A stretch of DNA of 20,485 nt from a virus. Each line of letters starts with the position of its first letter. The first letter of the stretch is position 1. The DNA is taken from the IMG/VR virus record IMGVR_UViG_3300006919_000608, positions 1-20,485 of that record; one strand, 5' to 3'. The translations under genes and the position numbers were made by a program. Under the pieces are notes generated by a model. That model was not told the DNA's origin and did no database searches. It saw only the letters and a list, made by a program, of their open reading frames with translations. Positions 2,600-20,485 of the stretch are shown piece after piece.

Positions 2600-3021
2600 T
2601 GTATGAATACGCTTGTAAAGTTGAAAGAGTCGTTGATGGTGATACTGTTGACGTTGTGTTGGACCTTGGGTTCGATATTCTTTATAAGTCTCGTGTTCGT
2701 TTATATGGCATTGATACTCCCGAGTCACGCACTCGTAACAAAGATGAGAAGGCTAGAGGAAAAATGGCTGCGTCTTTTTTAGAAGATGCTATTAATAATG
2801 GTAAGCAAGTAGTAATACAAACAAAATTAAAAGATTCTAGAGGTAAATTTGGTAGAGTTTTGGGTGATGTTGTTGTTGATGGAATAAATATTAACCAGTC
2901 AATGATAGATAATTATCATGCTGTTGCCTATTTTGGACAAAGCAAAGAAGCAATAGAAGCAGTACATCAATCTAATAGAACTAGACTTATAGAACTTGGA
3001 AAGTTTAGTCCAGTAAAATAA
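2599..3021 (+). CDS. Staphylococcal-nuclease-like (SNase/thermonuclease) enzyme, 140 aa
   Basis: This is a calcium-dependent OB-fold nuclease that cleaves DNA or RNA phosphodiester bonds. Family motifs appear in order: VVDGDTVDV (11-19), SRVRLYGIDTPE (31-42) and GKFGRVLGDV (82-91). The residues matching the catalytic trio Arg35/Glu43/Arg87 of the staphylococcal enzyme are R34, E42 and R86, and acidic metal ligands (D15, D39) are present, so it is probably active. The length is that of the bare catalytic domain. There is no signal peptide, unlike many secreted bacterial SNases, so it should act in the cytoplasm or be packaged in virions. It may degrade host DNA or process phage DNA. The start and end are TAATG overlaps. 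Confidence 0.92.
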   Translation: MYEYACKVERVVDGDTVDVVLDLGFDILYKSRVRLYGIDTPESRTRNKDEKARGKMAASFLEDAINNGKQVVIQTKLKDSRGKFGRVLGDVVVDGININQSMIDNYHAVAYFGQSKEAIEAVHQSNRTRLIELGKFSPVK

Positions 3022-3371
3022 TGGAACAAGCAATCCAATTTATTAATGAAGTAGGTTTTCCAATAGCTGCTGCATTAGGACTAGGTTTTTTTATATGGAA
3101 GCTGATTAATAGAATTATTGACGGCATGGAAACTAAACTTGATGTGTTAGATGATAAGGTAGCAGATCAAATAGCACAAATGGAAGAGAGACTAGGTACT
3201 AAGTTAGATTCACAGCATGGTATTTTAGTTGCTTTAATTGATAGAGTAAGGTCATTAGATAACGAAATTATTAGACAAGATACACTTATAAAAACAATAC
3301 TAGGTGTACCTCAACTAATAGATAGCAATAAAATCGCTAAAGCTGATCGTGATGATCAGAGGAAGGATTAA
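3021..3371 (+). CDS. Membrane-anchored coiled-coil protein, 116 aa, holin-like candidate
   Basis: Residues ~8-30 (VGFPIAAALGLGFFIWKLIN) form one membrane helix. A long charged coiled coil follows (~35-90), then a polar tail. This N-anchor plus coiled-coil layout resembles BhlA/UviB-type holin-like proteins and other small phage membrane proteins. It is the last gene before the curli-like cassette. Because spanins and endolysin follow that cassette, this is a plausible holin or antiholin, but the assignment rests only on topology and position. Its 3' end carries the ribosome site of csgF and a small hairpin. Confidence 0.6.
   Translation: MEQAIQFINEVGFPIAAALGLGFFIWKLINRIIDGMETKLDVLDDKVADQIAQMEERLGTKLDSQHGILVALIDRVRSLDNEIIRQDTLIKTILGVPQLIDSNKIAKADRDDQRKD
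3343..3359 (+). promoter_or_regulatory. Small hairpin next to the csgF ribosome site
   Basis: CTGATC (3343-3348) and GATCAG (3354-3359) form a perfect 6-bp inverted repeat around a 5-base loop. A purine-rich ribosome site (GAGGAAGG, 3359-3366) follows directly, then the csgF ATG at 3372. The stem could tune translation of the cassette's first gene. It also lies in the coding end of the previous gene and is short, so it may be chance. Confidence 0.25.
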
Positions 3372-3833
3372 ATGCACATAGATAATTTAATAGCAATTAT
3401 AGCTATTGTTTTTTTTACTTTACTTGTATCTTTAACAGTAGAAGCAGATCAAATAGTTCATAAATTTAAATCACCAAGTTTTAGCGGTGAAGCTACATCT
3501 AGTCATTATTTAACTATTGAAAATCAAGAACACAGCAGAAAGCTTACAATTAAAGAAGAAATAAAAGCTTTGCAAGATGAAATAGAAAGAGAAAAAGAAA
3601 ATTCTACTTTAGCAAGGTTTATGCGTAATTTAGAGTCAAGAGTTTACGCAGAGCTTTCTAGACAATTAGTTAATAATTTATTTGGTGAAACACCACAAAG
3701 CGAAGGAATAATAACATTAGAAGGAAACATCATTGAATATACAAGTGATGGTGTAACTCTTACTTTAAAAATAACAGAAGCAGATGGAACAGTTACGGAA
3801 ATTACCATACCTATCGGTACTTTTACTTTCTAG
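3372..3833 (+). CDS. csgF: CsgF-like curli secretion/assembly protein
   Basis: CsgF binds the extracellular mouth of the CsgG pore, forms a second constriction and couples curlin export to nucleation at the cell surface. Here residues 1-25 are a signal peptide with likely cleavage after VEA. The mature N-terminus begins DQIVHKFKSPSFSGEA, which parallels the E. coli CsgF start with its F-x-F-x-N-P-x-F-G-G pattern; this part plugs into CsgG. A helical middle (57-105) follows, then a beta C-terminus (GIITLEGNIIEYTSDGVTLT, 112-131) like the CsgF tail. The length of 153 aa compares with ~138 in E. coli. The ATG has a strong ribosome site. The last 50 bases overlap csgG. The neighbouring CsgG makes the call strong. 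Confidence 0.88.
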   Translation: MHIDNLIAIIAIVFFTLLVSLTVEADQIVHKFKSPSFSGEATSSHYLTIENQEHSRKLTIKEEIKALQDEIEREKENSTLARFMRNLESRVYAELSRQLVNNLFGETPQSEGIITLEGNIIEYTSDGVTLTLKITEADGTVTEITIPIGTFTF

Positions 3834-4656
3834 TTGTTCTATATTCCAACAGTTTGAAGATACTTATGAACAAAGGTTTCAGGACAAAAATATTGTTACA
3901 ATATCTGAATTGCAATCAAAAGAACTTGCAAATGTAGCTAAACCTTTGGTACAACCAGTAGTAGCTGTTTATCCTACTGCATTTACAGATCAAACAGGAC
4001 AAAGAAAAAGCAATAGTGAGTTTGCTTTATTTAGTACAGCTATAACACAACAACCTAGTGCATTATTAATTAGAGCTTTAAAACACGCTAGTAATGGTCA
4101 ATTTTTTAGAGTTGTTGAAAGAGTAGGTTTAGATAATTTAACAAAAGAAAGACAACTTATAAGGTCGGCAAGAGAGCAATTGTCTGATGAAGAAGAACAT
4201 AAAAAAACTCTACGACCTTTATTGTTTGCAGGGGTTTTAATAGAAGGTGCTGTAATTTCTTATGAAAGCAATCTTTCTACAGGTGGTACGGGGGCTAGAT
4301 ATTTAGGTATAGGCTCTAGTATTCAATATAGAGAGGATAGTGTAACAGTATCTTTGCGTATGGTTTCGGTGGCAACAGGAGAAATACTTATAGAAGTAAT
4401 GACTGAAAAAACAATTTTTAGTTATGGAAAATCTGAAGATGTATTTCGTTTTATAGAAATGGGAACAGAACTTGTAGAAATAGAATTAGGTAATTCTAGA
4501 AATGAGTCCTCTACCATAGCTTTAATGAAAGCTATTGAAAGTGCTGTACTAGAATTAATAAATGTCGGATACGACAGGAGTTTTTGGAAACATGAAGAAG
4601 TTGAAATTAATAAGCCTGATTGCGATGCTGATTGCATTGCCAATATACGGGGCTGA
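3784..4656 (+). CDS. csgG: CsgG-like outer-membrane curli secretion channel lipoprotein
   Basis: CsgG is a lipoprotein that assembles into a nonameric outer-membrane pore exporting unfolded curlin. The N-terminus has a basic start, a hydrophobic stretch and a lipobox LLSSC with C18 as lipidation site. Diagnostic stretches match E. coli CsgG: TDQTGQRKSNSEFALFSTAI (68-87, constriction loop), VVERVGLDNLTKERQLIRSA (~111-130), IEGAVISYESNLSTGGTGAR, YLGIG, VATGEILIEVMTEKTIFSYG, DVFRFIE and INVGYDRSFW near the end. The length of 290 aa compares with 277. In the constriction loop, Phe56 of E. coli is kept (F83), but Tyr51 and Asn55 align with Asn77 and Leu82. The start at 3784 lies inside csgF and is supported by the lipoprotein signal it encodes. 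The gene overlaps csgF by 50 bases and the next gene by 65. Confidence 0.95.
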   Translation: MEQLRKLPYLSVLLLSSCSIFQQFEDTYEQRFQDKNIVTISELQSKELANVAKPLVQPVVAVYPTAFTDQTGQRKSNSEFALFSTAITQQPSALLIRALKHASNGQFFRVVERVGLDNLTKERQLIRSAREQLSDEEEHKKTLRPLLFAGVLIEGAVISYESNLSTGGTGARYLGIGSSIQYREDSVTVSLRMVSVATGEILIEVMTEKTIFSYGKSEDVFRFIEMGTELVEIELGNSRNESSTIALMKAIESAVLELINVGYDRSFWKHEEVEINKPDCDADCIANIRG

Positions 4657-5323
4657 TAACGAAATATATATTGATCAGTCAGGAACTGGTGCAAATATAG
4701 ATTTAGAACAATTAGGTATTTCTAATATTATTGGAGGTTCTGATGCGTCAGCAGGTAACATGACTGCTTTAGACCTAGATGGTAATTCAATGACATTGGA
4801 TATAAACATGATAGGCGGAACAAATAAATTTTTAGGAGATATTTGGGCTGATAATTTTACTGGGTTTTATGAATTTACTGGAGGAAGCAATACTTTTAAT
4901 ATACAAGTTGATCCTTCAAATACTTATGGAGCAGATGATTCTGATCAAAATGTACAAGTAACAGGAAGTTCTAATACATTTACTTTAAATCAAGCAACAA
5001 CTGCTTTAGCTGATAGTTTAAATTTAGATTGGATAATACAAGGTTCTAACAATACTATTACATCAACTATTAATATTGATAATGCTACTAATTACATGGA
5101 TATAGATGGTTCTGATAATACTTTGACCTATGTAGGTACTGGTGTTACAGCTTCTGCTGGTGGTTATTTTTACTTAGATCATACAGGAGGATCAAGAACT
5201 TTTAATATTCAACAATTAAGTACACAAGATAATGATTGGCTCAAAATTTTATCTACAAGCGGTACTTCTGCTTCTACTGTTTGTGTCATTCAAAACGACC
5301 AAGGTACAAGCACAAGTTGCTGA
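4592..5323 (+). CDS. Curlin-like exported beta-repeat protein (putative CsgG cargo), 243 aa
   Basis: I chose the ATG at 4592 because it gives a clean signal peptide (MKKLKLISLIAMLIALPIYG, cleavage near G20/A21) and has an ACAGGAG ribosome site; an ATG at 4562 would bury it. The mature start IYIDQSGTGANIDLEQLGIS (25-44) has Q-x-G-x-G-x-N and Q-x-G-x-x-N spacing, the hallmark of CsgA/CsgB repeats. Seven looser units of G-x-x-N-T-(F/I/L) type follow at about residues 63, 75, 97, 125, 151, 173 and 199, a 12-28-residue rhythm that suggests stacked beta turns. Composition is Asn/Thr/Gly/Asp-rich with very little Lys or Arg. Two Cys residues lie near the end (231, 243). Position right after csgG supports it being the secreted fibre subunit. 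It is not a close CsgA copy, so the function is inferred. Confidence 0.7.
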   Translation: MKKLKLISLIAMLIALPIYGADNEIYIDQSGTGANIDLEQLGISNIIGGSDASAGNMTALDLDGNSMTLDINMIGGTNKFLGDIWADNFTGFYEFTGGSNTFNIQVDPSNTYGADDSDQNVQVTGSSNTFTLNQATTALADSLNLDWIIQGSNNTITSTINIDNATNYMDIDGSDNTLTYVGTGVTASAGGYFYLDHTGGSRTFNIQQLSTQDNDWLKILSTSGTSASTVCVIQNDQGTSTSC

Positions 5324-6347
5324 TATAGGAGATATATCTGAACTTAATGGTTTTGCTCAAATAGTTAGAGATAAACCATATGTAGCTAATTTAGATTTTG
5401 CAATACAAAGTAATGATGAAGCCATAACTACAAATGGAAGAATGGCTATTACTTTTTTAGATGATAGCAAGGTAAAACTTACAGAACATTCACAATTAAT
5501 TATTGATGAATATATTTATGATCCTGATCCTAGTAAAGCCAAAATGGCTCTTACATTTGGTTTAGGTACAGCTCGTTTTATAACTGGCAATCTTAATCGT
5601 ATAGATAAACAAAACATAAGTCTTAAAACACCTACTGCTGATATCGCTATAAGAGGAACGGATTTTACAGCTACAGTAGATGAATTAGGTCGTAGTTTAA
5701 TAATACTGCTTCCAGACCCATTTGGGCTTTCTAGTGGCGAAATAGAAGTTGTGACTGCTATGGGTACTGTAATACTAAATAAGCCCTACGAAGCGACTAC
5801 AGTAAGCGTATTTGAGTCTGCACCAAGTAAACCTGTTATTTTAGATTTAACATTAAATCAAATAGATAATATGTTAATTGTTACTCCTCCCAAAAAAGAA
5901 GCAGTTATTGAAGAACAAATAGTCACTAAAAAAGCAAATATATTAGATTTTAATGATTTAGATATAGATTATTTAGCAGAAGATTTATTGGCTGAAGATG
6001 ATTTAGAATTTAATGAATTAGATATAAATTATTTAGATGTTAATTTTTTAGAAGATTTACTTAATGTTTTAGATGCTTTAGCAATAGAAGAAGAGGAAGA
6101 TCAATTAGCACAAGCTACAAGCACACAAATAACAGGTACATTATTAGGTAGAGACCCTGATACACAAATTACAACATTAATAACAGGTAATGTTATAAGT
6201 ATGAGAAGAAGCATAAATGAATCTGTAAGAATAGATTTAGATGCCAGTAATTCTTATACAGTTATATTTATACAGGATGGAGTTTCTAATGTAGTTAAAG
6301 TAAATGGTGGTAGTGATTCAACAATAACTATAACTCAGAGTGATTAA
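5232..6347 (+). CDS. Exported FecR-domain protein with acidic repeats and curlin-like tail, 371 aa
   Basis: The start at 5232 overlaps the upstream gene by 92 bases and is supported by a signal peptide (hydrophobic 9-20, cleavage near VQA/Q at 27-28). Residues ~40-147 are a FecR domain: NDEAITTNGRMAITFLDDSK, then KLTEHSQLIIDEYIYDP, then LKTPTADIAIRGTDFTATV. This domain is an extracytoplasmic beta structure used in signalling. Residues 238-290 hold imperfect acidic repeats (LDFNDLDIDYLAEDLL and LEFNELDINYLDVNFL). The C-terminus (340-371) has IQDGVSNVVKVNGGSDSTIT, with the Q-x-G-x-x-N spacing of curlin. In bacteria, FecR proteins are often encoded beside CHASE2 cyclases, as here. It lacks the N-terminal anti-sigma helix of classical FecR. 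It may link the fibre to the cyclase sensor (inference). Confidence 0.8.
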   Translation: MIGSKFYLQAVLLLLLFVSFKTTKVQAQVADIGDISELNGFAQIVRDKPYVANLDFAIQSNDEAITTNGRMAITFLDDSKVKLTEHSQLIIDEYIYDPDPSKAKMALTFGLGTARFITGNLNRIDKQNISLKTPTADIAIRGTDFTATVDELGRSLIILLPDPFGLSSGEIEVVTAMGTVILNKPYEATTVSVFESAPSKPVILDLTLNQIDNMLIVTPPKKEAVIEEQIVTKKANILDFNDLDIDYLAEDLLAEDDLEFNELDINYLDVNFLEDLLNVLDALAIEEEEDQLAQATSTQITGTLLGRDPDTQITTLITGNVISMRRSINESVRIDLDASNSYTVIFIQDGVSNVVKVNGGSDSTITITQSD

Positions 6348-8107
6348 TGAAAAAAATATTATTAGTTTTAGTTATAGTTTTATTTATTCCATTTATTACG
6401 CAAGTAAATATATTACAAATAATAAAACTTAAAACATTTGATGCTTTTGTAACTAAACAAAAACCTTCAGAATATTTTACTATTTTAAATATAACAGAAG
6501 AAGATATAGCTAATGAAGGTGGTTATCCCTTATCTAGACAAACACTAGCACAAATACAAATAAATCTTTTACGTCAGGGTGCTATAGGAGTTGGATGGGT
6601 TATAGCTTTTCCACAACCTGATAGATTTGGTGGTGATTTTGAATTTGCTAATGCTTTATCTTTTTCTCCTAGTGTATTAGCTATGTTTGAAGGCAAAGGA
6701 GATTATCCTCCTACAATAGGCACAGTTATATTGGGTGACGACATTGGAGGTTTAAAAGCTGAAGGGGTAATACAAAACATAGAATTATTACAACAAAATG
6801 CAAATCAAGGTTTAGCTGTTGCAAGAACTGATATAGATAATTTAGTAAGAAGATTGCCTTTACTTATGAGAAGCAATGATGGATGGGTAGCTTCTTATGG
6901 AACAGAAGTTTTAAAAGTATTAGCTGGTGCGGATACTTATGTTATTAAAACTAATGTTAATGGCATTGAAGAAATAAGAGTTAAAGGCTTACCGCCAGTT
7001 AAAGTAGATAGTTTTGGTAGAAAGTGGATTAGCTGGGTTAATACACCACAAACAAATTTACAAGAAATGAACGTGGAAGGTAAGTTTGTTTTTGTAGGTT
7101 TTACAGCAAAAGGCATAATGCCACAAATTGCTACACCAGCAGGTTTATTAGAACCACACAAAATACAAGCTGCATTAGCTGAATCTATACTTATACAAAA
7201 TAGTCCACACATACCTGACTATGCACTAGCAGTAGAAGCAGTATTATTAATTTCAATGATATTGTTAACTTGGGTGTTAATAAATATTTTTGGAATATCG
7301 TTAGGAATACTATTTACCAGTCTATTGTTTTTTTCTACAGCAGGAAGTGGGTATTATTTAATACAACAAGGTTTATTAATAGACGTAACATGGTCGCTTA
7401 TATCTCAGTTTATTACAGCAGCAACAGCTTTTTATTTAAGATTTAGAGAACAATACAAATTAAGACAACAAATAAAACAACAGTTTGGAAAATACTTAGA
7501 CCCAAGGATGGTTAAGAAATTACAAGATAATCCTGAACTTTGTCAGGTTAATGGTAAAAGAGTTGATTGTTCTATTATTTTTACAGACCTTAGAGGATTT
7601 ACTAGCTTATCGGAATCAGTTGAACCTGAAGTAGTAACCTACATTATGAATTCTGTATTAGATGCACAAGTACAAGCAGCTAATAAATATTTTGGATGCA
7701 CAGATAAATTTATTGGAGATGCTGGTATGTTTCATTGGAATACTATTATTCCACAAGAAGATCATTACAATCTTGCTTTACAAGCAGCAAAAGAAATAGA
7801 AAAAAATATTGACCAGTTAAATATTAAATTTGCAGAAGAAGATATACCTGAAGTTGCTATTGGTATAGGTGTAAATTCTGGAGTTTGTATAGCTGGTAAC
7901 TTTGGAGCAACAGATAGATTTGCATTTAGCCTTATAGGAGACCCTTGTAATGTAGCAGCTAGACTAGAATCAAGTACAAAGGTTGCAGGAGTAGGAGTTT
8001 TGATAGGTGAAGAAACTGCCAAATATAGCGATTTTAAGCTACAATTATTAGAACCTATAGAAGTAAAAGGTAAAGCTAAACCATTACAGGTTTATACATG
8101 GGCATAA
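6347..8107 (+). CDS. CHASE2-domain class III adenylate/guanylate cyclase, 586 aa
   Basis: The product should be an inner-membrane receptor making cyclic nucleotide from NTP. TM1 is at ~3-20. An extracytoplasmic CHASE2 sensor spans ~25-285, with the typical GGYPLSRQTLAQIQINLLRQ at 58-77. Three membrane helices follow (~293-313, 316-338, 343-364), then a linker and the class III catalytic domain (~405-586). Metal Asp residues are D414 (FTDLRGFT) and D458 (KFIGDA). K454 is the adenine-specifying Lys, and S528 sits where Asp/Thr usually stands. The transition-state residues are N535 and R539. Spacing D414-K454-D458 and N535-R539 equals that of well-studied cyclases, so activity is likely and ATP is the probable substrate. 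The TAATG start couples it to the FecR gene. Confidence 0.92.
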   Translation: MKKILLVLVIVLFIPFITQVNILQIIKLKTFDAFVTKQKPSEYFTILNITEEDIANEGGYPLSRQTLAQIQINLLRQGAIGVGWVIAFPQPDRFGGDFEFANALSFSPSVLAMFEGKGDYPPTIGTVILGDDIGGLKAEGVIQNIELLQQNANQGLAVARTDIDNLVRRLPLLMRSNDGWVASYGTEVLKVLAGADTYVIKTNVNGIEEIRVKGLPPVKVDSFGRKWISWVNTPQTNLQEMNVEGKFVFVGFTAKGIMPQIATPAGLLEPHKIQAALAESILIQNSPHIPDYALAVEAVLLISMILLTWVLINIFGISLGILFTSLLFFSTAGSGYYLIQQGLLIDVTWSLISQFITAATAFYLRFREQYKLRQQIKQQFGKYLDPRMVKKLQDNPELCQVNGKRVDCSIIFTDLRGFTSLSESVEPEVVTYIMNSVLDAQVQAANKYFGCTDKFIGDAGMFHWNTIIPQEDHYNLALQAAKEIEKNIDQLNIKFAEEDIPEVAIGIGVNSGVCIAGNFGATDRFAFSLIGDPCNVAARLESSTKVAGVGVLIGEETAKYSDFKLQLLEPIEVKGKAKPLQVYTWA

Positions 8108-8110
8108 AAT

Positions 8111-8506
8111 ATGAGTAAAGTTTTAATAGGTATAATTGCAGTATTATTAATAATTGGTTATTTTCTTTGGAATGAAAATGCAAGATTATCTGCATTAAAT
8201 CAAGCTTTTGAATTACGGGATCAAGAACAACAAGCTGCTATAGAGTCTTTGCAAAATGATTTTAAATTGCAAACAGAAGGTTTATTAGAGATACAAAGTA
8301 AAAATCAAGCTATAGAAGCTGAAATGTCTAGATACTTAGATGTATTTAAAAGACATGATTTAACTAAACTAGCAGCAGCTAAACCATCTTTACTAGAGCC
8401 TAGGGTTAATAAAGGAACTAAAAATGTATTTGATAGTATTGAAGAAGACAGTCGCAGCATTGATGATCTTGATGATGGTCTCCAGTTGCAGTCTGTTTCC
8501 AAGTAA
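8111..8506 (+). CDS. Inner-membrane spanin-like (Rz-like) protein, 131 aa
   Basis: An N-terminal membrane helix (~3-20, VLIGIIAVLLIIGYFLW) is followed by a long periplasmic coiled coil (~22-80) and a polar tail with the stretch HDLTKLAAAKPSLLEP (82-97), which I associate with Rz-like proteins in marine phages. Rz-type i-spanins span the periplasm and, with an outer-membrane lipoprotein partner, fuse the two membranes at the end of lysis. The overlapping downstream lipoprotein gene and the endolysin after it fit this role well. The ATG follows the cyclase stop by three bases. Confidence 0.75.
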   Translation: MSKVLIGIIAVLLIIGYFLWNENARLSALNQAFELRDQEQQAAIESLQNDFKLQTEGLLEIQSKNQAIEAEMSRYLDVFKRHDLTKLAAAKPSLLEPRVNKGTKNVFDSIEEDSRSIDDLDDGLQLQSVSK

Positions 8507-8804
8507 ACAAAACGTACAAATAACTACTAAAGCTTTAGAAAGGCAAATAGCACAGCCTGTTATGCCTAGAGAAATAGATTTAAAAGAACCATATTGGTAT
8601 GTAGTTTCAGATAAAAACATAGATGAGTTTTTGGCTAGAGTTGAAAAAGAACATGGGCAAATAGTTTTCTTTGCTATGTCTGTACCTGATTATGAACTCA
8701 TGTCTTACAATATGCAGGAATTAAAGAGATATATAAATGAACTTAAACAGGTTGTGGTCTATTATAGAAAAGTTACTACAAATAAACCTGAAACAGGGGA
8801 GTAA
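8424..8804 (+). CDS. Outer-membrane lipoprotein, o-spanin-like (Rz1-like), 126 aa
   Basis: The start at 8424 lies inside the Rz-like gene in the +1 frame, an 83-base overlap typical of Rz/Rz1 pairs. The N-terminus has a basic/hydrophobic signal ending in the lipobox MVSSC (C22 lipidated). The mature part has a short linker containing QPVMPREIDLKEP, then a small folded region (WYVVSDKNIDEFLARVEKEH, later YINELKQVVVYYRKV). It is longer than classical Rz1 (about 60 aa or less), so the extra domain is unusual for the class but familiar from other marine phages. Pairing, lipobox and position give good support for the spanin role. Confidence 0.7.
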   Translation: MYLIVLKKTVAALMILMMVSSCSLFPSKQNVQITTKALERQIAQPVMPREIDLKEPYWYVVSDKNIDEFLARVEKEHGQIVFFAMSVPDYELMSYNMQELKRYINELKQVVVYYRKVTTNKPETGE

Positions 8805-8805
8805 T

Positions 8806-9249
8806 ATGAACATATCACAAGAGGGGATAGCTTTAATTAAAAAGTTTGAAGGTTGTGAATTAGAAGCTTATCAAGATTCTGTAGGTGTTTGGACTATAGG
8901 ATACGGACATACTAAAGAAGTAAAAGAAGGTGACAAAATAAATCAAGATGAAGCCGAACATTTATTACAAGAAGAGATGCCTGAATACGAAGGCTATATA
9001 AATGACATGGTTACAGTACCTTTAAAACAATGTCAGTTTGATGCTTTAGTTTGTTGGGTCTATAACCTAGGACCAACTAATCTTGGCAATTCAACATTAT
9101 TGAAATTACTTAATGCAGGTGATTATCATACAACACCATCACAAATTAAAAGATGGAATAAAGCTGGAGGAAAAACATTGCAAGGATTAATTAGACGAAG
9201 AGAAGCAGAAGCACTTCTTTTTGAAGGTAAAGAATGGATTGAGGTCTAA
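8806..9249 (+). CDS. Endolysin, GH24 (T4-lysozyme type), 147 aa
   Basis: This muramidase cuts the MurNAc-GlcNAc bond of peptidoglycan to end the infection. The GH24 catalytic triad is complete with lambdoid spacing: E15 (KKFEGCELEAY), D24 (QDSVGVW) and T30 (TIGYGHT). Later family features are FDALVCWVYNLG (84-95) and LIRRREAEALLF near the end. There is no signal-anchor helix, so it would need a holin to reach the wall. The ATG at 8806 was chosen over one at 8737: it follows the lipoprotein stop by one base, has an AGGGGAG ribosome site and gives the canonical N-terminus. Confidence 0.95.
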   Translation: MNISQEGIALIKKFEGCELEAYQDSVGVWTIGYGHTKEVKEGDKINQDEAEHLLQEEMPEYEGYINDMVTVPLKQCQFDALVCWVYNLGPTNLGNSTLLKLLNAGDYHTTPSQIKRWNKAGGKTLQGLIRRREAEALLFEGKEWIEV

Positions 9250-15961: not shown

Positions 15962-18042
15962 TGAATTTAGTAGATTTAGCAACAGAATTAGAATATGTGC
16001 CTAAAGAACAATTGGCACAAATGTCACAAGACCCTAGCAGTAGGTATCCTCAATACTTAGTATTGTCAGAAATACAAAGAAGAACTGCTAACGAAAAAGC
16101 TTATGCAGCAGCTAAACCTAGACCTACTACTACAGTAGCAGAAGAAGTTGTTGGTGAATTTATGCAACCTCAAAGTTTGCAAGCAGGTATGCCGTCTGAA
16201 TCAGCTCCAACTGATGCTTTCTCTTCAGAGTCTATGGGTATACCTGCCTCTGCTCCTATGCAACAACCTATGATGATGGCTGGCGGTGGTCAAACTAAGG
16301 CAGAAGCTAGAGAAAGCATTATTGATATGATGTCTGATATAAACATAAAACGTGGTGAAGCTGGATTATCTGGATTAATGGATGCTGCTGGTGATGTTAT
16401 AACTGCTGGTAGTGCTGTTATACCTGTAAATGCAGCAGGTAAGTTAGCACTTATAGAAAAAGCCATGAAGCCTTTATCTGGTGCTTACAGAAAAGCTTTA
16501 GAAGCTTCTAGAAAAGGTAATGTTGAATATGCAAATTTAGACCCTCTAGTTAAAGAACAAGCAAAAAAATATATACAACTTAGTAAAGAATCTGATAAAG
16601 CTTCTTTTACTTTGGGTGCAGGTGCACCAACAGCTTTTTCTTTAGGTGTTGCTAATCAAGCAGGAAAGTTTAAATATCAAGATGAAGATAAAAAAGCTAG
16701 TGGTGGTTTAACTGAATATATGAAAGAAGTTGGCTCTGAACTTAAACGTATAAAAGAAAAAGAATCTAGATATGCAGCTAGAAACAAAAGAGAAAAAGAA
16801 GGAAAAACAATATTTTCTACTTCATTATCACCTAGAAAATATGTAATACCTGATGAAACATATAAAAAATTAACTGATAAAGGAATGGTTAGGGCTTTTG
16901 ATGCCTATAGACCTATGGGATTATTGTTTAACGCTTTATCTGGAGAAGGTGCATTTAGTGGAATGGATAGAACAATACCTGAATCAAAATTAAAAAACTT
17001 AGAGTCTGCAATGAAACAGTCTCGTAATGAAATGCAACAAAGACAATTAGGTTTAGCTAGTGGTGGTTTAACTGCTTATGCTAATGGTGGTGCATTAGAA
17101 CAAAGTTTTGCAGACCCATATGAAAACGTATTAGGTTCATCTTCTAATCCTTACCCTATGGAATATATTGAAGATGAAGAAGATTTAACAATAGGAGATT
17201 TACGAGACCCATTAGCAGCAGCTACAGCGTTATTAGCCCTTGATCCAAGAAGAAAAGCTTTAAGTTATTTAGGAGGTAAAGCCAAAGGTTTATTTGGTGC
17301 AATAAAAAGAAGATATAAAAAAGATGATATAGATTTAGGACCAACAGGTATGCCAGCAGGTAAAGTTAAAGTTGGAAAAGAAACTTATGATCCATCAAAA
17401 GTAACTGTTCCACAAACAGGTATAGACTTAAAAAAAGTTATTAAAGACCCTTTAATTACAGTTCCTGCTGGATTAGGAACTGCATATTCTATATCGTCTT
17501 TATCAGATGAATCTGTTGATACAAATGATAAAAATAAAACAGAAACAGATACAGAAAAACAACTTCGTTTGCAAAGAGAAGAATATGAAAAACAACTCGC
17601 AGAACTCAGAAATAAAGCCACAGGAATAGCTAAACCTAAAAAAGAAATAGACTATGACTTAGTAGGATTAGGTGGTCTTATAATGGGTGCTAGAAATATG
17701 AGTGAACTTGGTACAGGATTAGCTGGATTAGCTGAAAGAAGACAAGCTAGAGAAGATGCTTTATTAGAAGGACAAGCACAACAAGATTATTATAGAGCTA
17801 GTGCTGATAAAGTAAGAGCTGAAATAGAAGGTTTACCTTTAGAAAATAAAATGGATGCTTTAGAACAAGTAAATGATATTCTTACTAAAGCTTTAGAAGG
17901 TGAAATTGAGCTCACAGAAGAACAATTACAATATTATAATGTAGCCTCTCAAACTTTAACTTCACAAATTTTAGCGTTACAAGGAATAACTGCAAATTCA
18001 TTAACAGGACTTGATCCATTAGAAGAAAATAGAATACAGTAA
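15961..18042 (+). CDS. Large phage structural protein, 693 aa, internal-protein type
   Basis: TAATG overlap at both ends. The N-terminal 45 residues (LAQMSQDPSSRYPQYLVLSE, IQRRTANEKAYAA) match a pattern I know from many marine phage virion proteins. A Met/Pro-rich linker (QPMMMAGGGQTKAE, ~100-115) leads into an alpha-helical region with a hydrophobic patch (DAAGDVITAGSAVIPVNAAG). Then come a Lys/Glu-rich stretch, the motif ASGGLTAYANGGAL (~367-380), further helices and a long coiled-coil-like C-terminus (~520-665). No catalytic motif was found. It is likely an internal or ejection protein; the role is inferred from neighbours. Confidence 0.7.
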   Translation: MNLVDLATELEYVPKEQLAQMSQDPSSRYPQYLVLSEIQRRTANEKAYAAAKPRPTTTVAEEVVGEFMQPQSLQAGMPSESAPTDAFSSESMGIPASAPMQQPMMMAGGGQTKAEARESIIDMMSDINIKRGEAGLSGLMDAAGDVITAGSAVIPVNAAGKLALIEKAMKPLSGAYRKALEASRKGNVEYANLDPLVKEQAKKYIQLSKESDKASFTLGAGAPTAFSLGVANQAGKFKYQDEDKKASGGLTEYMKEVGSELKRIKEKESRYAARNKREKEGKTIFSTSLSPRKYVIPDETYKKLTDKGMVRAFDAYRPMGLLFNALSGEGAFSGMDRTIPESKLKNLESAMKQSRNEMQQRQLGLASGGLTAYANGGALEQSFADPYENVLGSSSNPYPMEYIEDEEDLTIGDLRDPLAAATALLALDPRRKALSYLGGKAKGLFGAIKRRYKKDDIDLGPTGMPAGKVKVGKETYDPSKVTVPQTGIDLKKVIKDPLITVPAGLGTAYSISSLSDESVDTNDKNKTETDTEKQLRLQREEYEKQLAELRNKATGIAKPKKEIDYDLVGLGGLIMGARNMSELGTGLAGLAERRQAREDALLEGQAQQDYYRASADKVRAEIEGLPLENKMDALEQVNDILTKALEGEIELTEEQLQYYNVASQTLTSQILALQGITANSLTGLDPLEENRIQ

Positions 18043-20485
18043 TGAGCGTATATAAAGCACCTGATGGAAGTAAATATAATATTCCTACAGAGCCTTTACA
18101 AAGAAAAAGATTTGTTGATGCTGTAAAAAATAAATACGGAGAAGATTTAGATCAAACTTCTACATTAGATCAGGCAATAGAATTTGGTAAAGCAATACCT
18201 AGGGGTGCTGCTAGTTTAGCTTTGTCTGTACCTACAGGTATAGTTTCTTTATTTGATATTGGTGATGATAGTGCAGCACTTAAAGGTTTACGAGGTCTAG
18301 AAAAATCATTACGAGAAGATTCAGCACTTGCAGCCGATCCTAGATACGCAGATAAATTTAGTACAAAACTAGGTGAAGGTATTGGATCATTTGTTCCTTT
18401 TTTAGGTGCTGCGAAAGTAGGTAGCACTTTAGCTAAAGCAGGAGCAGTAGGTCAAAAAACTGGACAATATGGTGTACCAGCAGCATTAGCTATACCAACA
18501 GGTATGTCTGCACAAGCTGATCGTATAAACATGGCTAGAGAAATGGGTGAAGATGTTGGTGGTTTAACAGAAACAACTGCCACTCTATTAGGTGGTGCTA
18601 TAGGTATTACAGAAATATTACCTGTTGCACACATATTTTCTAAAGTATCTAAAGCAGCTCCTAAATCTGTAAAAGAACAATTAGTATCTGCACTTAAATC
18701 AGGTGCATTTGAAGGTGGTCAAGAAGTAGGTGCAAGCATACTGCAAGATTTAACTGCTCGTGGTTTATATAGTGAAGAATTACCTATTGGTGAAAGTCTA
18801 TTTGATGAGTTTACTATAGGTGGCATTATTGGTGCTGGTGCTGATCTGGTTGTTACTAGCATGGGTAAGAAAGGTATAAAAGACTATCACGCAGAAGAAA
18901 AAGCTAGAAGAGAAACTTTAAACAAACAAGAATTATTAAAAACAAAAAAAGTGGAATTAGGTCTTGAACAAGGCACTATTCCAGAATTTCAAGAACCAAC
19001 TCAAATTGATGTTCCAAACATCCCCGCCCCCGAATCCATACAAGACCCTCTTAATTTAGATTATGTAGAAAATGCTGATGGCAGCTTTGCTATATTAGAT
19101 TTAAATCAACCAGCCAATCCTATTATATCTACAGCACCTACACAGGCTGCTGCTGTTACAGGTATTGAGAAACTTAAAACAAAACAAAACAATGCTTTGT
19201 TAAAAAACCAACTAGATAATATGCTTTACCTACAAGGTAATGTTAATAGTGCTGCTGCGTTTGAATTAGGACAAACTTTATTAGACCCCATAGCTACAAC
19301 TGTTACAGCTAATGATATAGCAGTTAATAACAGTAGACTTAAAGACACAGGTAAAAAGAATTTTGTAGATCAAAATAAAAATAAAACTTTTAGTATGCCT
19401 GAAGCAAAAAAACTGCTTACTAAAAAAGATTTTAACACCATGACAGAAAGTATGGCACAAGCCGTATTTAAACAATCAGAAAAGTCTGGAGAACCTTCTT
19501 TAACTGCTGGTAAACAAAAACTTAATACTACTCCTAAGTTTTTAAAGTCTATGCTTGCTTCTAAAAACATAGACCCAGATAGTATTATCTCACCTGCTTT
19601 TCAACACGCTGCTGAAGTATTTACAGGAACAAGTCAAATTTCAAGCATGACTAAAGGACAAAAAGAACTTTTGTTAGCTAGAATTCATGCTATGCCTAAG
19701 TTTAATAATAAAATTTCTTTTCCTGAATTTAGAAATAGAGAGTATTCAGCCAAAGATATGGCTGATTTTGTAGCTAATATTGGTAAAACTGAATTTACAA
19801 TAGATAATGTCAAAGATTTTTTAACTCAAAGATATACAGGTAAAAAAGCCAAATATCACAAAGGTAACTTTGAAGATAATTCTTTTTTAGCAATACAAGA
19901 AGCTGATACATTTTTAAGAGATTTAAAGGATAGTGGTAGAGCAGAATTACAAGAAGATTTTGTTACATACAAAATTAGAGACAACTTTGAATTTGATATT
20001 GCAAGACGAGCTGAAAGTTTTGGACAAACACCAGAAGAGTTTAGAGCCAAGTTAGAAGCAGAAAATAAATTACCACAAGAGATTATTGACCAGTTAGTAG
20101 AATCAGAAAGAGTAAAACAAGAAAAACTTTTACCTCCAGAAGAGGTTGAACCTAAAGTTATAAATTATCGTGAAGCAGTAGAAGAGGGTAGAACTAATAA
20201 GTTTGCTAAAGAAGCTCAAAGAATATTAAACGAAAGGGGCTTGAAAGATACTGGTGTAGTTATAAGTAATGAATTGTTATCTGCTAGCACATTAAGACAA
20301 GTAAAAGATAACGAACTTATTTATGATCCAAGAGCAGTAAAAGATAGAGGCATATTAGGTGAGTATGATAAACAATCTGACATTATATTTTTATCACTTA
20401 ATAGAATTAATCCTGATGGCAATCTTACAGAGTCAGATATACAACAAAAGTTAAATAGAGTTCTTGACCATGAAATGATTCATGC
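18042..20485 (+). CDS. Giant polyvalent/ejection-type protein with zincin motif, 3'-truncated (814 codons seen)
   Basis: The frame opens at the TAATG at 18042 and has no stop to the window end, so the gene continues. The N-terminus (MSVYKAPDGSKYNIPTEPLQ, then RKRFVDAVKNKYGED) is a short soluble cap. Hydrophobic Gly/Ala stretches follow, such as PRGAASLALSVPTGIVSLFD (~49-68), GIGSFVPFLGAAKVGSTLAK and TLLGGAIGITEILPVAHIFS. The region around EGGQEVGASILQDLTARGLY is a pattern I associate with large polyvalent phage proteins. The last residues are VLDHEMIHA, an HExxH zinc-protease motif (H810, E811, H814). These are features of proteins that are injected with DNA and act in the host. Identity beyond that is inference. 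Confidence 0.75.
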   Translation, partial: MSVYKAPDGSKYNIPTEPLQRKRFVDAVKNKYGEDLDQTSTLDQAIEFGKAIPRGAASLALSVPTGIVSLFDIGDDSAALKGLRGLEKSLREDSALAADPRYADKFSTKLGEGIGSFVPFLGAAKVGSTLAKAGAVGQKTGQYGVPAALAIPTGMSAQADRINMAREMGEDVGGLTETTATLLGGAIGITEILPVAHIFSKVSKAAPKSVKEQLVSALKSGAFEGGQEVGASILQDLTARGLYSEELPIGESLFDEFTIGGIIGAGADLVVTSMGKKGIKDYHAEEKARRETLNKQELLKTKKVELGLEQGTIPEFQEPTQIDVPNIPAPESIQDPLNLDYVENADGSFAILDLNQPANPIISTAPTQAAAVTGIEKLKTKQNNALLKNQLDNMLYLQGNVNSAAAFELGQTLLDPIATTVTANDIAVNNSRLKDTGKKNFVDQNKNKTFSMPEAKKLLTKKDFNTMTESMAQAVFKQSEKSGEPSLTAGKQKLNTTPKFLKSMLASKNIDPDSIISPAFQHAAEVFTGTSQISSMTKGQKELLLARIHAMPKFNNKISFPEFRNREYSAKDMADFVANIGKTEFTIDNVKDFLTQRYTGKKAKYHKGNFEDNSFLAIQEADTFLRDLKDSGRAELQEDFVTYKIRDNFEFDIARRAESFGQTPEEFRAKLEAENKLPQEIIDQLVESERVKQEKLLPPEEVEPKVINYREAVEEGRTNKFAKEAQRILNERGLKDTGVVISNELLSASTLRQVKDNELIYDPRAVKDRGILGEYDKQSDIIFLSLNRINPDGNLTESDIQQKLNRVLDHEMIH

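Follow-up and report, generated by a model that had tools for sequence, protein, structure and literature searches.

Why a tailed phage should carry genes for curli-type secretion alongside an apparent envelope sensor is the question raised by a viral DNA of 20,485 nt, here termed the window. Five genes at 3372-8107, all on the + strand, lie head to tail, with overlaps of 50, 65, 92 and 1 bp between successive members from csgF to the cyclase gene. A first-pass annotation, made from the sequence alone, regarded them as one module exporting a fibre-like cargo and sensing the envelope, in a combination of which CsgG/CsgF, but not the full set, was familiar from some marine phages. The cassette is a well-formed further example of a type VIII (curli-type) secretion module already published for pelagiphages, and the reading favoured here, at a probability of roughly 0.6, is that an HTVC023P-related podovirus carries this module and that it acts by CsgG-CsgF export and FecR/CHASE2 sensing.

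Genomic context of the cassette

The window is 99.96% identical over its length to the 57.7-kb contig G001, and no DNA match to the whole window was found in public phages. Judged by the portal protein of G001, which is closest to those of HTVC023P, 023Pt_psg01 and HTVC027P (41-44%), the virus is a marine tailed phage, a podovirus related to the SAR11 podophage HTVC023P. The closest relative of the tail protein belongs to DSL-LC04, a phage of a gammaproteobacterium (39.5%); with portal and tail proteins pointing in different directions, SAR11 is a likely but not a certain host. At one edge of the window, 1-537 encodes the C-terminal part of a tail-fibre-like protein that resembles an S74 intramolecular chaperone by eye and has no NCBIfam match; at the other, a large ORF (18042-20483) runs off the window end and reaches at least 1573 residues in G001.

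Phage genes flank the cassette on both sides. The upstream flank holds an SNase-like nuclease and a small transmembrane (TM) protein. Downstream, on the + strand, lie an inner-membrane Rz-like spanin (8111-8506), an overlapping outer-membrane lipoprotein spanin of Rz1 type (8424-8804) and an endolysin of the phage lysozyme type (8737-9249), so that both spanins and the endolysin are closely packed after the cyclase gene at 8111-9249; a tail 'stabilization' protein is also encoded in this flank.

Curli-type secretion components

Four of the five cassette proteins, namely CsgF, CsgG, FecR and the CHASE2-class III cyclase, have Pfam matches above curated cut-offs. The CsgF homologue (3372-3833, +) consists of a signal peptide followed by an F-x-S-P-x-F-x-G motif aligning with the N-terminus of Escherichia coli CsgF, and matches PF10614 with E=4e-17 (62.9 bits against a curated cut-off of 25.8). 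All 82 phage relatives retain the motif as F.[NSG]P.F.G, and the CsgF profile matches solved CsgF weakly (E=0.5), over the FQFRNPNFGG stretch of the E. coli protein. The CsgG homologue (3784-4656, +), a predicted outer-membrane lipoprotein pore with an LSSC lipobox, matches PF03783 with E=3e-50 (170.7 bits against 20.8) and solved E. coli CsgG chains with E of about 1e-46, bearing out the first-pass assignment of both proteins. Likewise CsgE, already noted as missing, was not detected with PF10627 in four relatives or in two cultured myophages, HTVC008M and Melnitz. It is missing from all Alphaproteobacteria surveyed (PMC3521004), and its absence is therefore compatible with an alphaproteobacterial-type system. 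A CsgG 41.8% identical to that of the window is also encoded by OR851715.1, an unverified 1499-base 'Salmonella phage' record that may be host DNA.

The third gene (4592-5323, +, with an alternative start at 4562) encodes a secreted, curlin-like, all-beta repeat protein, the presumed cargo of CsgG-CsgF export. It possesses a signal peptide, its AlphaFold model is all-beta with a mean pLDDT of 81, and invariant N-x-I-Y and Q-x-G positions are common to it and the annotated curlin-associated proteins of two cultured phages, in keeping with the secreted fibre-like partner first proposed. Its sole curlin-repeat match falls below the Pfam cut-off (13.7 against 20.7 bits), for which reason it is termed curlin-like only; the G001 version scores 17.3 bits, and relatives of the protein match weakly in 9 of 18 cases. 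Curlin repeats above the cut-off are present within the module of both Melnitz and HTVC008M. A fold search with the cargo model returned no PDB match at E<0.001.

The FecR protein and the cyclase

The fourth gene (5232-6347, +) encodes an exported FecR-domain protein (PF04773, E=6e-9). Its structure model, of low confidence (pLDDT 39), was not used, and a candidate curlin repeat at its C-terminus (IQDGVSN...TITQ) was rejected: the motif occurs in 24 of 25 sequences, but with a curlin-repeat profile it scores no better than shuffled tails do.

The last gene (6347-8107, +) encodes a CHASE2 transmembrane class III nucleotidyl cyclase, matching CHASE2 (PF05226, E=4e-27) and Guanylate_cyc (PF00211, E=3e-15) above Pfam cut-offs and also matching a PDB structure, as expected of the sensor cyclase initially described. 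It diverges further than the other four proteins (median identity 58% against about 80%), yet its catalytic residues are complete: metal-binding D414 and D458, substrate-binding K454 and transition-state R539 are conserved in 57/57 sequences and transition-state N535 in 55/57. Position 528 is Ser or Thr in most relatives, as in class IIIb. With its active site intact, the cyclase looks active.

The suggestion that the module signals by cAMP meets a difficulty: no cNMP-binding domain is encoded by four relatives, whose linear records may be fragments and so do not prove absence, or by the two myophages. Among 297 genomes from the family of a Pelagibacter-named MAG, representing the SAR11 family, 16 have such a domain and 281 do not, and an above-cut-off cyclase was found in two, both times on contigs bearing the phage module. 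A frame of 870 residues that matches the cNMP-binding domain weakly is present in about a dozen SAR11-family genomes. It is a doubtful proposition, if a conceivable one, that hosts mostly without class III cyclases and cNMP-binding proteins receive from the phage its own envelope sensor, made up of FecR and the CHASE2 cyclase, together with a cAMP signal that acts via an undescribed receptor or through nucleotide depletion.

A Pycsar anti-phage system was also considered and rejected: PycC profiles match the cyclase domain generically, and the adjacent cyclic-nucleotide effector that defines such systems is lacking, as no effector profile matched among the cassette proteins scanned and the relatives have no cNMP-binding domain. 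Nor was the premise that FecR proteins commonly neighbour CHASE2 cyclases in bacteria upheld, with 4 of 20 alphaproteobacterial loci having the two within about 6 kb and 1 of 30 short bacterial loci having a FecR motif beside CHASE2, both counts coming from a weak regular-expression test and the former from a small sample.

Conservation and published modules

In IMG/VR, at least 377 stretches encode a relative of this CsgG, the closest 80 of which were kept for locus comparison. The complete five-gene set occurs in 68 of the 80, with order and single strand kept in 68/68; this search of viral contigs for co-occurrence, proposed with the first-pass annotation, agrees with its view of one conserved module, as does the order in the two cultured myophages. 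Because the loci compared are closely related, with CsgG proteins at least 76% identical, a shared gene order is in itself weak evidence of function; HTVC008M and Melnitz, at 36-45% CsgG identity, offer better evidence. A promoter search, yielding fewer candidates than in shuffles, was uninformative.

The full gene set is not new. Wittmers et al. 2022 described HK-CsgF-CsgG-CsgA/B-FecR-(CsgA/B)-adenylate cyclase in HTVC023P-type podophages and myophages, reporting metatranscript evidence, transfer of the module between phage families and an alphaproteobacterial origin (PMC9599517); the CsgF/CsgG part has also been reported (PMC7029224, PMC9004378), and the set is present in the GenBank genomes of HTVC008M and Melnitz. 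The published module and the window share the same genes in the same order and, by portal protein, the same virus group, CsgE being found in neither. They differ in that a second curlin gene, frequent but not constant in the published module, is absent from the window, where the 'HK' position is occupied by a TM coiled coil without kinase domains. HTVC008M and Melnitz resemble the window in having csgF-csgG-curlin-like-FecR-cyclase preceded by two relatives of this small TM protein, but have an additional gene between fecR and the cyclase gene (curlin-associated in Melnitz) and different flanking genes.

The small protein at 3021-3371 (+, 116 aa), whose gene is abutted by csgF, is a membrane-anchored coiled coil with a single N-terminal TM segment (phrog_18771) and a weak holin profile match; a permissive Pfam scan of it found no kinase family match, including HisKA and HATPase. 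All 65 testable loci have a relative of its gene upstream of csgF, no more than 900 bp away, and the gene belongs to the cassette as a sixth member. By position only, it is probably the gene called 'HK', and the upstream 'kinase' of the published module is probably not a kinase.

Bacterial curli (csg) operons share with the window the CsgG pore and CsgF. In the class to which a Maricaulis-named MAG belongs, CsgF exceeded its cut-off in six of 385 genomes, one being that MAG itself with its phage contigs; the five other cellular csg loci have strong curlin repeats in three cases and FecR or a cyclase nearby in none. A genome scan for cellular donors was set aside, 7 of its 8 matches being contigs bearing the phage module inside MAG bins. 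Such contigs (L087-L093) turn up in the bins of MAGs labelled Maricaulis, Neomarinimicrobiota, Rhodobacteraceae, Flavobacteriaceae and Pelagibacter, and bacterial CsgG, FecR and CHASE2 counts from MAGs can consequently be contaminated.

Proposed function and alternatives

From the gene identities, their order and conservation, and the intact cyclase active site, it may be inferred that the infected host would make a CsgG outer-membrane pore with docked CsgF, and that the curlin-like protein would cross the inner membrane via its signal peptide and exit through CsgG-CsgF, to cover the infected cell with fibres or a coat. The periplasmic FecR protein and the CHASE2 domain would report on export or envelope state, a signal that the cytoplasmic cyclase would pass on as cAMP. 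An altered host surface is the most likely benefit, and may cause nearby hosts to aggregate or block competing phages; clumping was not seen in Melnitz-infected cultures (PMC9004378), which weighs against aggregation.

Lysis timing is a weaker alternative. A contribution to lysis was entertained at first pass and a lysis role was proposed in PMC9004378. In this view the CsgG-CsgF pore would open the outer membrane or depolarise the envelope, and the small TM protein, given its weak holin match, would serve as a holin-like partner. Spanin or lysin genes do stand directly behind the module in 40 of 41 testable close relatives, but the annotated stretch around it in HTVC008M and Melnitz shows no lysis genes, and the link is lineage-specific. 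The window's phage is, moreover, already equipped with an endolysin and both spanins, and the idea gives no account of the curlin-like cargo, the FecR protein or the cyclase, making it unlikely that the pore is a lysis device. A surface-changing role is preferred because no lysis neighbourhood is seen in the myophages and lysis needs neither cargo nor sensor.

Uptake of large nutrients or cofactors through the pore, with FecR and the cyclase sensing iron or nutrients, has been suggested (PMC7029224, PMC9599517), and seems improbable in a cassette that has no transporter gene and whose CsgF and secreted cargo it would not explain, a FecR domain alone being no proof of an iron role. Misassembly of bacterial DNA with phage contigs, the artefact that the first-pass annotation guarded against, is effectively ruled out by independent contigs crossing both cassette/flank junctions (L003, L022 and L033, each comprising cassette and flanks) and by the same order in cultured phage genomes.

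Conclusions

To the published account this analysis adds that the upstream 'kinase' is probably none, and that the cyclase is apparently active, although neither the phages nor most SAR11-family genomes show a cAMP receptor. Among ocean viruses the module is widespread, and an infected cell would gain from it a surface function reportedly missing in SAR11.
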